Assembly: GCA_028293625.1 (NCBI GenBank)
Contig: JAQGOL010000037.1
Location: forward strand, 1 to 64,000
DNA length: 64,000 nucleotides
Source of the DNA: Chthoniobacteraceae bacterium
GTDB taxonomy: Bacteria > Verrucomicrobiota > Verrucomicrobiia > Chthoniobacterales > Chthoniobacteraceae
Reading direction: 5' to 3'
The notes under the pieces were generated by a model. It saw only the letters and a program-made list of their open reading frames with translations, did not search any database and was not told the origin of the DNA. The translations under genes were made by a program, and so were the position numbers. This document shows, piece after piece, positions 21,887 through 32,886 of this stretch (position 1 is the stretch's first letter; the number at the start of each line of letters is the position of its first letter).

Positions 21887-23931
21887 CGTTTGGAGAACCG
21901 CTTTGGTTTTGGGCATTTGCGCTTTTGCCGCTGCTTTTTTTGCTTTTTCTGAACAATGAGCGCAAGCGTTTGAAACTGATCCGCCAGCTGGTGGCGGCCC
22001 GGCTTCAGGACCGGCTCGCGGGCTCGGTGAGCGTTGGCAAACGGCGATTGCGTTTTTTTCTGCTCCTGGCCGGGATCGCCTGCGTCATCACAGCTTTGAC
22101 TCAGCCGCGCAATGGTTACGACTGGACCCAGACCAAACGCAAGGGACGCGACATCCTCATCGCCATCGACACCTCGCGCAGCATGCTTGCAACCGATCTG
22201 GCGCCGGACCGGCTCACCCGCGCCAAACTCGCCGCGCAGGATCTCATTTCCCAGCTCAGCGGCGATCGTGTCGGGCTCATCGCGTTCGCCGGCAATGCTT
22301 TTTTACAAGCGCCGCTTACCGTCGACTACAGCGCGGTGCTCGGGGCGCTTGAAGAGATTGATACCGAAATCATCCCTGAAGGCGGCACCAACATCGCCGC
22401 CGCCCTTCGAATTGCCGAGGACGCTTTTGGCAAGGGAGAAAGCGACCATCGCGCCGTCATTATTCTGACCGACGGCGAAGAGCTCGAGGACGAAGGAATC
22501 AAAGTTGCCGAAAGGCTCCACGGTTCGATCACCATTTTCACCATCGGCCTTGGGTCGCCCGAGGGGTCGCTTATTCCCCTGCCCGGCGGCCGCGGCGGCG
22601 AGTTTGTCAAAGATCTCGAAGGCCAGATCGTCAAAAGCCGCCTCGACGAAGAGCGCCTCTCTAAAATTGCGGAATTGACAGGCGGCTTTTATCTTCGGCT
22701 GCAAAATGGCATGGCTGATACCAGCCGGGTCGTTCGCGAAGGCCTTGGAAAAATGACCGAACACGATATTGACTCCAAACTATCCCGCCAGCCAATCGAA
22801 CGTTACGAATGGCCGCTGGGGGCCGGCATCGCTTTATTGGTTGCCTCGATGCTTGTAGGAGAACGTCGCAATTCGCCTGGTCGCCGTATTGCCACGGCTT
22901 CCGCGGTGGCGGCGATTTTGCTCCTGCCATCGGGGGCGTGGGCGAAAAATTCCGGAGTCGAGGCGTACGAAAAAGAGGATTACAAAGGAGCGCTCGATAA
23001 GTTTTCCAGGCAGCTCAAGTTGCAGCCCAAATCCGAGGCGCTCCATTTTGATCTTGGAAGCGCCGCCTATAAGGCGGGCGATTTTGATAAGGCGCTCGAA
23101 TCGTTCAGCCGCGCGGTGACTTCTTCCGACCCACAGCTTCGCGCCAAGGCGGAATATAATCTTGGCAATACCCTTTACCAGCGCGGCGCCGCGCAGAAAC
23201 AAAAAGAGCCGAAAATTCAGGAATGGCAGAATGCGCTCCAGCATTATGAGGAAACGCTCAAGGCGCAGCCGAACAACAAAGATGCACAGTTTAATCGGGA
23301 CCTGATCAAGACCCTGATCGCCGACCTGAAAAAGGAGCCGCCGAAGGAAGACAAAAAAGACGAGAAGAAGGATAAGCAGGACGACAAGAAGGACGAGAAA
23401 AACGAAGACAAAAAGGAGCAAAAAAAGGACGGCAAGGACGATCCGAAAGACTCCAAAGACCAGAAGGGCGATCCAAAGGATGGACAGGATTCCAAGGATC
23501 CAAAGGATGGCCAGGACTCCAAGGATCCAAAGGATGGCCAAGACTCCAAGGATCAGAAGGGTGAGCCAAAGAATTCCAAGGATCAGGAGGGCAAGGAGGG
23601 CGGAAAAGACGACGCCAAGGAACAACCGGCTCCGGGGAATAAAGACTCCAGGGAAGGAGAAAAAAAGGACGCACCGCAACCGGGCGATCAGGCCGAGGAG
23701 AAAGACAAAAAACCGGAGGGCGAATTGAAGTCCGCTGGACAGGAAGGCGGACCGGAAAATGAACCGAGCGAAGCCGAGCAACAGGCGGCGGAAGAGGCCG
23801 CAGCAGCGGAAGGAAAGATGACCGAAAAACAGGCCAAAAACCTTCTTGAATCCCTTAAAAGCGAGGATAGGCGCGTGCAATTGCTGAAACCGAACCGCAA
23901 GAATCCCGGCCGGCCGCTCCGCGACTGGTAA
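21883..23931 (+). CDS. BatB/BatC-type protein: VWA + TPR + Lys/Asp-rich tail (682 aa)
   Basis: From the ATG at 21883 (4-bp overlap with batA): two membrane helices, a VWA domain with MIDAS (AIDTSRSMLATDLAPDRL; ILTDGEELED), a third helix (WPLGAGIALLVASMLVGE), and then a second hydrophobic stretch ending GAWAKNSG that may place the rest outside. TPR repeats follow (YEKEDYKGALDKFSRQLKLQ, LGSAAYKAGDFDKALESFSR) at ~370-480. Residues ~490-640 are an extreme Lys/Asp/Glu-rich low-complexity region with perfect PKDGQDSKD repeats. This joins BatB and BatC in one chain. The frame is open to 21808 but the ATG at 21883 fits the family. Confidence 0.88.
   Translation: MTFGEPLWFWAFALLPLLFLLFLNNERKRLKLIRQLVAARLQDRLAGSVSVGKRRLRFFLLLAGIACVITALTQPRNGYDWTQTKRKGRDILIAIDTSRSMLATDLAPDRLTRAKLAAQDLISQLSGDRVGLIAFAGNAFLQAPLTVDYSAVLGALEEIDTEIIPEGGTNIAAALRIAEDAFGKGESDHRAVIILTDGEELEDEGIKVAERLHGSITIFTIGLGSPEGSLIPLPGGRGGEFVKDLEGQIVKSRLDEERLSKIAELTGGFYLRLQNGMADTSRVVREGLGKMTEHDIDSKLSRQPIERYEWPLGAGIALLVASMLVGERRNSPGRRIATASAVAAILLLPSGAWAKNSGVEAYEKEDYKGALDKFSRQLKLQPKSEALHFDLGSAAYKAGDFDKALESFSRAVTSSDPQLRAKAEYNLGNTLYQRGAAQKQKEPKIQEWQNALQHYEETLKAQPNNKDAQFNRDLIKTLIADLKKEPPKEDKKDEKKDKQDDKKDEKNEDKKEQKKDGKDDPKDSKDQKGDPKDGQDSKDPKDGQDSKDPKDGQDSKDQKGEPKNSKDQEGKEGGKDDAKEQPAPGNKDSREGEKKDAPQPGDQAEEKDKKPEGELKSAGQEGGPENEPSEAEQQAAEEAAAAEGKMTEKQAKNLLESLKSEDRRVQLLKPNRKNPGRPLRDW
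23473..23553 (+). repeat. three 27-bp tandem repeats inside the Bat TPR gene
   Basis: Units at 23473-23499, 23500-23526 and 23527-23553 each encode PKDGQDSKD and differ by only one to three bases. They sit inside a longer Lys/Asp-rich segment (about 23330-23720) with degenerate copies of the same motif. Recent slippage expansion is likely. Confidence 0.85.
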
Positions 23932-28913: not shown

Positions 28914-29696
28914 TCAGCGCGATTGTAACAAGGGGCGGAGAGCGGCATCCGTCAATAAACGCCACGTGACCGGGAGGGAAGTCGAGCGGTCGAGCACGGC
29001 TGCCTCGATGCTGGCCGCCGTAAGTTGTTCTTCGGCATGAAGCGCGATGGTGGCCGAGGATGGCAATTCCATGGAATCCTCCGCTCCCAACGCGAGGTGC
29101 CCCACCGTCCACGCCTCCAAGGCCACGCGCAGCGCCTTTTCAAGTGACACATTCGCAAAATTTTGCTCCTGCAAAAAGCGTGTCATCTGCGCCGTTGAAG
29201 AAGCGTTTCCGGAGAGCACGCCAAATTCCTCAAACGCCCGCCCGAAGCCGCCGCCGTTGGTATGGATCGCGCCGTCATATTCGAGACGCAAAAAGAGATC
29301 GGGCAAATCGCCGCGTCCGAGTTCGACAAACAGCATTCGCGCCAGGTAGGGAGCGCCATAGATCTGCTCAAAGGCAGTTTTCAGCACGGAACTGAGCGAA
29401 TAAGTGGCGAGCCGGCGGAGGGAAACATCGTCGCCCGAACGCACAAACCCTTCAGTGCTCGCCAGTTCAAGGGCCATCATCCGCAAGCGTTCAATGTCAC
29501 CCGGATGACCGATCGCGCCCATGGCGATCCTATCGTAAATCTCGAAGAGCTTCTGGCGTTCGCGGCCTAGGGTAAAGAGCACGATCCCCTCTTTAAAGCT
29601 AAGCGCCACAATCGGGCTGCCGCCGCCGAGTTGATGCTCAATATACTCACGTCGATTAGCGATGGCTTCGACCCAGCGGTAAGGCTCTTCGATCAT
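28914..29696 (-). CDS. prcA: 20S proteasome alpha subunit (260 aa)
   Basis: Proteasome alpha-type Ntn fold: the N-terminal YRWVEAIANRREYIEHQLGG, then GSPIVALSFKEGIVLFTLGR in the position of the first strands, LFEIYDRIAMGAIGHPGDIE, and FVELGRGDLPDLFLRLEYDG. There is no Thr at the position of the beta-subunit nucleophile, as expected of the gate-forming alpha ring. It follows prcB by 14 bp. With the beta subunit it should form the proteolytic core that degrades UBact-tagged proteins. Confidence 0.88.
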   Translation of the reverse strand: MIEEPYRWVEAIANRREYIEHQLGGGSPIVALSFKEGIVLFTLGRERQKLFEIYDRIAMGAIGHPGDIERLRMMALELASTEGFVRSGDDVSLRRLATYSLSSVLKTAFEQIYGAPYLARMLFVELGRGDLPDLFLRLEYDGAIHTNGGGFGRAFEEFGVLSGNASSTAQMTRFLQEQNFANVSLEKALRVALEAWTVGHLALGAEDSMELPSSATIALHAEEQLTAASIEAAVLDRSTSLPVTWRLLTDAALRPLLQSR

Positions 29697-29710
29697 GGCA
29701 ATAAGGGGGG

Positions 29711-30514
29711 TTACGAAACCTTCTCCTTAAAGATCTTGGAGAGTTGTTTATCCGAAAAGGTGACGATCCCCTTCTCAGAGACAATTTTCACGATTGGAAA
29801 AACGCGACCGCGCCGATCGACACCACCCGTGGCGGTGTCCGTCTCCGCGGCTGTTTCCAAAGTGCGTAACGCGATAAGAACCGCCTCGGCTTCATTCCGT
29901 TTCCGCAGCGGCCTCGCGCCCCAGGTGTTTTCGTAATGAAGTATGCTGCGGACGGCACCGGAACCCGAACCGCTCGCCGCGTAATCGGCCGCTTCAAACT
30001 GCGCGCCCATCGCATCGTAGAAATAAAGCCGCGCCGTTGCGAGGAGTGGATCAAAAGTCGCAAAGAGAGGAACCACCACGCCAACGCCCTGAATGACCAA
30101 CCCCAAATTGTCGCGCAAAAGTTTGGAGAGCGCGCGCACTTTTCCTTCATGGCTCATTTCTTGAAGCTGGCTGCGCCGGTAAAACTGAAACGAATGTTCG
30201 AGCACACGCGCCATTTCCCAAGCCGTGGCGGGAACCCCGGCAATTGCCATCAGAGAAAAACGGTCGATTTCGAGCACCTTATCAGCCCGATCGTAAACCA
30301 CCAGATTTCCGGCGGTTGCACGGCGATCGCCGGCAACGAGCACGCCGCCGGCAAATTTAAAAGCGAGGATGGTGGTCGCTTCGGTTTGAAGAAATGGGGC
30401 GTGGCCGGCCTGAACCGGGAGCGCGGGATAGATGCCGCGTTTTCTTAAGAGGGCTGGGAAATCTTCGGGCCCAAACTGCGCTGTGGGGGCGGCAGGCAAA
30501 TTGGCGAAGTCCAT
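29711..30514 (-). CDS. prcB: 20S proteasome beta subunit (267 aa)
   Basis: A 46-residue propeptide is followed by the mature start TTILAFKFAGGVLVAGDRRA. Counting from Thr47 as Thr1, Asp63 is Asp17 and Lys79 is Lys33, so the catalytic set of proteasome beta subunits is complete. GSGSGAVRSILHYENTWGAR corresponds to the conserved G-S-G region near Ser129. The ATG lies one base after the UBact stop (TAG-A-ATG), so the two are translationally coupled. This is the active, self-processed Ntn hydrolase ring. Confidence 0.95.
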   Translation of the reverse strand: MDFANLPAAPTAQFGPEDFPALLRKRGIYPALPVQAGHAPFLQTEATTILAFKFAGGVLVAGDRRATAGNLVVYDRADKVLEIDRFSLMAIAGVPATAWEMARVLEHSFQFYRRSQLQEMSHEGKVRALSKLLRDNLGLVIQGVGVVVPLFATFDPLLATARLYFYDAMGAQFEAADYAASGSGSGAVRSILHYENTWGARPLRKRNEAEAVLIALRTLETAAETDTATGGVDRRGRVFPIVKIVSEKGIVTFSDKQLSKIFKEKVS

Positions 30515-30515
30515 T

Positions 30516-30692
30516 CTACTCTCCTGTGCGTTGCCGGTAGCGCCGCGATTGATTGGGATCTACACGCCGCATTCGCTGGAGGAGATCCTTTGTGTCGGGC
30601 TTGGAAACATCGGGAGCTTTGGGTCCGCCACCCTCGCCCTCTTTCGGACCCCACGGCGCGGGTTCCGTCGCTCTTTGCGTACGTTCAGGCAT
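30516..30692 (-). CDS. ubact: UBact, prokaryotic ubiquitin-like protein (58 aa)
   Basis: From the ATG at 30692 the product begins MPERTQRATEPAPWGPKEGE and ends SKPDTKDLLQRMRRVDPNQS, RRYRQRTGE. The disordered Pro/Gly/Glu-rich start, the K-P-D-T-x-D-L-L-x-R-M-R-x-V-D-P-x-Q-x-x-R-Y-R-Q-R helix and the C-terminal Gly-Glu are diagnostic of UBact, the Pup-like modifier described in Verrucomicrobia, Nitrospirae and related phyla. Ending in Glu rather than Gln means no deamidation is needed before ligation to lysines of targets. The frame continues upstream to 30776 but those residues do not fit the family. Immediately followed by prcB. Ligase and ATPase genes are not in the window. Confidence 0.95.
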   Translation of the reverse strand: MPERTQRATEPAPWGPKEGEGGGPKAPDVSKPDTKDLLQRMRRVDPNQSRRYRQRTGE

Positions 30693-31908: not shown

Positions 31909-32886
31909 TTATTGAGCGGGTTCCGCAGGCTTCGCTTCAGGAGCGGGTGCCGCCGGAGCGGGTTCCACGGGCTTCGCTTCAGGAGCGGGTGCCGCCGGAG
32001 CGGGTTCCACGGGCTTTGCTTCAGGAGCGGGTGCCGCCGGAGCGGGTTCCTCGGGCTTTGCTTCAGGAGCGGGTGCCGCCGGAGCGGGTTCCACGGGCTT
32101 GGCTTCAGGAGCGGGTGCCGCTGGAGCAGGTTCAACGGGCTTTGCTTCAGGAGCGGGTGCCGCTGGAGCGGGTTCAACGGGCTTTGCTTCAGGAGCGGGT
32201 GCCGCTGGAGGCGGTGTTGCGGGCTTCGCTTCGGGAGCAGGTGCCGCCGGAGCGGGCTCAACAGGCTTCGCTTCAGGAGCGGGTGCCGCAGGAGGAGGCG
32301 TCGCAGGCTTGGCTTCGGGAGCAGGTGGAGCGGGTTCAACGGGCTTGGCTTCAGGAGCGGGCACCGCAGGAGGAGGTGTCATTGGCTTGGCTTCAGGCGC
32401 AGGCGCCGCGGGTGCGGGTTCAACAGGCTTGGCTTCAGGCGAAGGGAGAGCTGGCACAGGCGTGGCTTCAGGCGCCGGTTTGACTGGCTCCGAAGCGGGT
32501 TCAGGCGCCGGAACCGGCGTTTCCAGCGTGACTGCCGGAGGAACCGAACCATCCGGGGCAGGCAGCACGGGAGCTTCAGAAGCGGTGGGCGCGGCCGGGA
32601 CAACCGTCGGCGCGGCGGCTTTCTGCAGCACCGAGCTCCCTCTATTGGTCTGCTTCACATAGAGAAAGGAGAGCAGAAGCGTGAGGATGAAAAAAATGCC
32701 TCCCAGCCAGCGGGTGATCGTTTGCAAAACGTTGGTTGCCTGGGCGCCAAAAAGGTTTTCAGTCATGCCTCCGCCGAAAGCCGCGCCAAGGCCTTCGTTT
32801 TTTGGACGCTGCATAAGCGTTAGAAGAATGATGAGCAGTGATACCAGGACGTGAATCACAAGCAGGATATTGATAACGATCGACAT
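31909..32886 (-). CDS. secG: SecG preprotein translocase subunit with a very long repeat tail (325 aa)
   Basis: The first ~75 residues are SecG: MSIVINILLVIHVLVSLLII, TLMQRPKNEGLGAAFGGGMT with the conserved Q-x-x-K-x-x-G-L-G-x-A-F-G-G, NLFGAQATNVLQTITRWLGG, and a second membrane helix (IFFILTLLLSFLYV). The following ~240 residues are Pro/Ala/Glu/Lys repeats built on PEAKPVEPAPAAPA. SecG is normally about 75-130 residues; short Pro-rich tails are common, but this one is extreme. It is part of the SecYEG channel. The frame opens at 32967; the ATG at 32886 fits the family. Confidence 0.92.
   Translation of the reverse strand: MSIVINILLVIHVLVSLLIILLTLMQRPKNEGLGAAFGGGMTENLFGAQATNVLQTITRWLGGIFFILTLLLSFLYVKQTNRGSSVLQKAAAPTVVPAAPTASEAPVLPAPDGSVPPAVTLETPVPAPEPASEPVKPAPEATPVPALPSPEAKPVEPAPAAPAPEAKPMTPPPAVPAPEAKPVEPAPPAPEAKPATPPPAAPAPEAKPVEPAPAAPAPEAKPATPPPAAPAPEAKPVEPAPAAPAPEAKPVEPAPAAPAPEAKPVEPAPAAPAPEAKPEEPAPAAPAPEAKPVEPAPAAPAPEAKPVEPAPAAPAPEAKPAEPAQ
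31915..32441 (-). repeat. 42-bp tandem repeat array in secG
   Basis: About thirteen EAKP units, mostly spaced 14 residues (42 bp) apart, encode PEAKPVEPAPAAPA with variants (PATPPP, PMTPPP, PEEPAP). One unit is shortened to 11 residues. Neighbouring copies towards the 3' end of the gene are nearly identical, suggesting recent expansion. All three frames of the opposite strand stay open across the array because of the period, giving spurious ORFs. Confidence 0.92.

Follow-up and report, generated by a model that had tools for sequence, protein, structure and literature searches.

The UBact, beta and alpha genes found in the window, i.e., the whole 64-kb stretch of DNA analysed here, which constitutes the first 64 kb of contig C27 (204.9 kb), very probably (roughly 0.9) provide a complete UBact-proteasome pathway, dispersed over three sites of the genome, with its tag and its protease core. 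UBact is related to Pup and has been little studied. The results show which genes are present and intact, to which families they belong, what catalytic residues they keep, and which of them co-occur or are conserved as pairs. The locus in the window comprises three genes:

30516..30692, minus strand: UBact, 58 aa, C-terminus ...QSRRYRQRTGE (PF20513, NF033388)
29711..30514, minus strand: 20S proteasome beta subunit (PrcB type), 267 aa, with a 46-aa propeptide (PF00227, TIGR03690)
28914..29696, minus strand: 20S proteasome alpha subunit (PrcA type), 260 aa (PF00227, TIGR03691)

The first-pass annotation had described a coupled UBact-proteasome operon here, and both its coordinates and its spacing proved exact: a single base pair separates the UBact stop codon from the beta ATG (30514), and 14 bp separate the beta stop (29711) from alpha. 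The modifier scores well over the curated cut-offs of the UBact models, with 82 bits against Pfam PF20513 (cut-off 27.8) and 88.6 bits against NCBIfam NF033388 (cut-off 35), and it is a short protein (58 aa) with the G[EQ] end that serves as a criterion for UBact (...RTGE). Its identification as Pup was dropped because the Pup model gave no match to the 58-aa protein up to E = 1, UBact alone being matched; the UBact profile searched against solved Pup structures returned one chance match and otherwise nothing. A genome-wide search found one UBact copy in the 6.8-Mb genome, and 26 of the 58 positions are invariant among nine Verrucomicrobiota sequences.

The beta subunit reaches 81 bits against PF00227 and 167 bits against TIGR03690, under the 191.9 cut-off of the latter, while alpha reaches 30 bits against PF00227 (cut-off 22.4) and 74 bits against TIGR03691, under its cut-off of 139. 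Residue 47 of beta aligns with residue 1 of the mature actinobacterial beta chains. The earlier assignment of Thr47, Asp63 and Lys79 as the N-terminal threonine that follows the propeptide, Asp17 and Lys33 is thus borne out, and none of the three varies among the 87 relatives. Alpha has a homologue in M. tuberculosis PrcA (phmmer, E 1.4e-12), and its Lys49, within QKLFE, aligns with the lysine of QKISE in that protein and is invariant in all 83 relatives; the two lysines are probably equivalent. The trio is kept across 80 loci taken from named GTDB records (Spartobacteria, Chthoniobacterales, Udaeobacter and others, with flanks of at most 10 kb per side), where UBact is followed by beta in 79 and by alpha in 74.

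Other features of the window were recorded along with the operon. An N-acetylmuramoyl-L-alanine amidase gene (PF01520; 28090-28869, minus strand) lies after alpha, and 55 of the 80 relatives have a related sequence downstream of alpha. A secG gene (PF03840; 31912-32967, minus strand) encodes a long C-terminal tail made of APAPEAKPVEP-like units, the product of a 42-bp repeat present about 12.7 times (31914-32439). Positions 23343-23585 hold short tandem repeats (9-27 bp).

The window contains no ligase or ATPase gene, as had been noticed at the outset. The genome search for a PafA-like ligase and an ARC/Mpa-type ATPase, proposed at that stage, located both: the only two Pup_ligase genes of the genome and its only ARC lie on contigs C6 and C29.

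Contig C6, L005:9287-10996: ARC, the Mpa-type ATPase (TIGR03689, PF17758)
Contig C6, L005:7719-9239 (match C6:175860-177233): Dop (PF03136, TIGR03688)
Contig C29, L006:2757-4160 (match C29:2844-4154): PafA-type ligase (PF03136)

The first-pass annotation had called the pathway split or reduced. Split it is, but it is not reduced, because a PafA-type ligase, Dop and ARC are all encoded elsewhere in the genome. Dop, located 47 bp downstream of ARC, scores 554 bits against PF03136 and 492.5 bits against TIGR03688 (cut-off 492.3), and the alignment places in it the Dop-loop insert WDYNLEDPHNDARGF. ARC scores over the cut-off of PF17758 (66.8 bits) and, with 457 bits, under the 504.75 cut-off of TIGR03689; it aligns with Mpa structures over residues 60-559 and displays the OB domain, the AAA domain and the overall Mpa architecture. 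In both Pup_ligase enzymes the GIETEYG motif is retained, as is the catalytic Asp (RLYMD / RFYND). On C29, pafA sits between an SprT-like gene and a zinc-ribbon gene and adjoins the latter and rplA-rplJ-rplL-rpoB. Just past the SprT-like neighbour lies a tyrosine-recombinase integrase gene (L006:562-1632, G000:C29; PF00589, PF13495), whose sequence, judged by eye, resembles integron integrases.

The identity of the C29 enzyme is the point that requires most care. It is a full-length protein that scores 405 bits against PF03136, and it is called PafA-type because it has no Dop-loop, keeps the C-terminal DPF motif of the PafA type and clusters with the PafA of C. glutamicum at moderate SH-like support (0.87). 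The Asp of this motif appears to be the PafA-specific Asp listed in PMC7947786. The call carries a reservation, since the enzyme scores only 12 bits better as PafA than as Dop (319.8 versus 307.6, both under the curated cut-offs) and since, in its alpha-loop, most residues are not those that mark actinobacterial PafA (Table 1 in PMC7947786). The NCBIfam PafA cut-off that it misses, at 551.3 bits, was set by curators, and in the tree a long distance separates the PafA of C. glutamicum from the relatives considered here. The enzyme could conceivably be a second deconjugase or deamidase rather than a ligase, in which case the chemistry of conjugation would differ from that of Pup; its phmmer scores, which are better against Dop structures than against those of PafA, and the Dop-like SSPE residues beside its catalytic loop would be expected on such grounds. 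We consider this improbable, given the missing Dop-loop, the DPF motif, the alpha-loop His that is kept, the grouping with PafA, and the fact that an enzyme of the C29 type partners a clear Dop in 10 of the 10 genomes concerned in the phylum sample. A PafA-type ligase on C29 is the reading retained below.

One may also ask whether UBact and the 20S core survive here as remnants of a reduced pathway, in the absence of a working ligase or ATPase. Contig C27 bears no ligase, Dop or ARC, and congeners of the window's genome offer some precedent. In G392, a 96%-complete draft of the same genus, UBact (with a Gln end), beta and alpha are intact in the same gene neighbourhood (C66, L236:7456-9681) and the catalytic residues of beta are kept, yet no Pup_ligase (PafA, Dop) or ARC was detected. 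Two further congeners have none of these genes; in one of them, G391, the SprT-like and zinc-ribbon genes stand 258 bp apart and the pafA site between them is empty (L251:9329-10722, G391:C48). In the window's own genome, however, both ligases are full-length and ARC has no internal stops, core genes for the ribosome and RNA polymerase lie on C29, and each ligase falls among relatives of the same order. The genome-wide searches therefore led to the rejection of such a reduction for this genome, where it would be very unlikely unless C6 and C29 were binning errors. That Dop, ARC and PafA derive from a contaminating organism, as a draft in 43 contigs with contamination estimated at 1.85% might lead one to suspect, is scarcely credible and was rejected on GC content (0.565 on C27, C6 and C29 in the stretches read), on the rplA, rplJ, rplL and rpoB neighbours on C29, and on the position of both enzymes among same-order relatives in the ligase tree.

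The complete pathway, with its parts spread over the genome, is supported by the distribution of these genes among relatives, for which a phylum sample of 388 genomes and an order sample of 213 genomes were used. In the phylum sample, UBact scores over the cut-off in ten genomes, and two full-length ligases occur in exactly the same ten, which also possess ARC and proteasome genes. Six of them are members of one related family with genomes of 2.2-2.5 Mb, in which ARC, Dop, UBact, beta, alpha and PafA follow one another within about 7 kb; in one member (G008), the Pfam search overlooked alpha, which tblastn recovered. This six-gene cluster ties together the parts that are dispersed elsewhere, as in the four same-order genomes among the ten, where the genes are split. 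Of the 213 genomes in the order sample, 111 have UBact over the cut-off, and in 110 of these a ligase occurs as well; a ligase occurs without UBact in 11 of the 213, and all 105 genomes with ARC have a Pup_ligase. The co-occurrence of UBact and ligase gives a Fisher p of 2e-46, uncorrected for relatedness. Sub-threshold UBact matches in G099 and G230 were set aside, these genomes having no ligase, ARC or proteasome genes, as was a match of 21.6 bits in G445, which is under the cut-off and has no listed ligase.

Among the matches listed, which come from fragmented assemblies, Dop lies on the UBact contig in 0 of 94 cases and PafA in 3 of 44. Within the flanks of at most 10 kb in the 80 GTDB loci, PafA is found near UBact in two, and neither ARC nor a separate Dop in any. 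Dispersal over three sites is the norm in this order of Chthoniobacterales-type Verrucomicrobiota, and since all parts are present though spread, having no ligase or ATPase beside UBact is ordinary for the order and does not denote a broken pathway. One genome of the window's family (G405) carries a zinc ribbon, PafA, a GYF gene, UBact, beta and alpha together. These layouts fit a once-linked cluster that may later have come apart. In three loci of other Verrucomicrobiota, a multi-pass membrane protein is encoded almost directly after UBact-beta (L146:10191-11759, L147:10184-11755, L148:10148-11722), with the look, by eye, of a TauE/SafE-type exporter. An own-built alpha HMM (E 0.1) found no alpha gene in these flanks, and the alpha of these genomes may lie elsewhere.

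Every enzymatic step of the proposed pathway, as well as the order of events, is extrapolated from the actinobacterial Pup pathway. UBact would be made with a C-terminal glutamate, whose gamma-carboxylate the PafA-type ligase encoded on C29 would activate with ATP and then join to lysines of target proteins. The hexamer of ARC, encoded on C6, would bind UBact through its N-terminal coiled coil, unfold the target and thread it into the alpha/beta 20S core. Dop, encoded beside ARC, would take UBact off again, its deamidase activity being presumably dispensable for a Glu-ending UBact.

The latter point bears on the initial proposal that the Gly-Glu ending implies no requirement for Dop-type deamidation. 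Chemically this holds, since a UBact that ends in Glu needs no deamidation before ligation; read as a statement that there is no Dop, it fails, Dop being present on C6. The last residue of UBact is Gln in 64 and Glu in 16 of the 80 loci. On the alpha+beta tree (80 rows), this state changes at least 10 times, with 8 changes forced by well-supported branches. Dop-type genes turned up in 15 of the 18 genomes with a Glu end and in 18 of the 22 with a Gln end; many of these genomes are incomplete. That Dop is kept whatever the ending of UBact suggests deconjugation as its conserved role, and it is more likely that Dop is retained as a deconjugase.

The contact between ARC and the core may differ from the mycobacterial one, where Mpa requires a C-terminal GQYL to open the core (PMC12288473). 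All 38 ARC ORFs examined, which come from this phylum, end in two branched-chain residues (31 VI, 6 VV, 1 II) placed after a variable linker. The GQYL / HbYX docking motif was found in none of the 38, nor was a Tyr at position -2. Given the conserved alpha lysine, it is plausible from these sequences that ARC docks through its terminal carboxylate, with no tyrosine involved.

The G392 draft is best regarded as a lead, that of a candidate UBact-beta-alpha orphan. Its alpha+beta branch measures 0.76, compared with 0.19 for the window, and its letter make-up is also unusual. It has been considered whether the UBact machinery of this clade, with an ARC docking by a tyrosine-free Val-Ile tail, is being dismantled, the UBact of G392 and its fast-evolving, catalytically intact 20S core persisting without ligase, deconjugase or ARC. 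UBact would then have a role that does not involve conjugation, e.g., in a non-covalent partnership with the 20S core; this is a speculative proposal that we think will probably not hold.

The system itself is known, complete and dispersed. The UBact system was described by Lehmann et al. 2017, cited in PMC12751074, and the pathway described here shares with it the modifier family, the adjacent alpha and beta genes, the PafA- and Dop-type enzymes and ARC, but occupies three sites instead of one cluster. Pup-like systems of Verrucomicrobia were already described in 2008 by Iyer et al. (PMC2588565), according to whom Pup invariably lies next to one PafA gene, whereas most Chthoniobacterales considered here have no PafA beside UBact. 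Compared with the actinobacterial Pup-proteasome systems of M. tuberculosis and C. glutamicum, the enzyme families are the same, and presumably the chemistry as well, but the modifier is matched by the model for UBact and not by that for Pup, and the ARC tail is devoid of GQYL. What is new lies in the details, i.e., the dispersal, the switching between Glu and Gln with Dop retained, the ARC tail and a possible orphan in a congener. That about one in two of the genomes sampled in the order has the complete pathway in dispersed form corrects the idea that the tag is always beside its ligase, Gln and Glu ends that both coexist with Dop provide a natural comparison for the reason why Dop is kept, and the ARC tails point to a conserved docking on the core that would differ from the GQYL mode.
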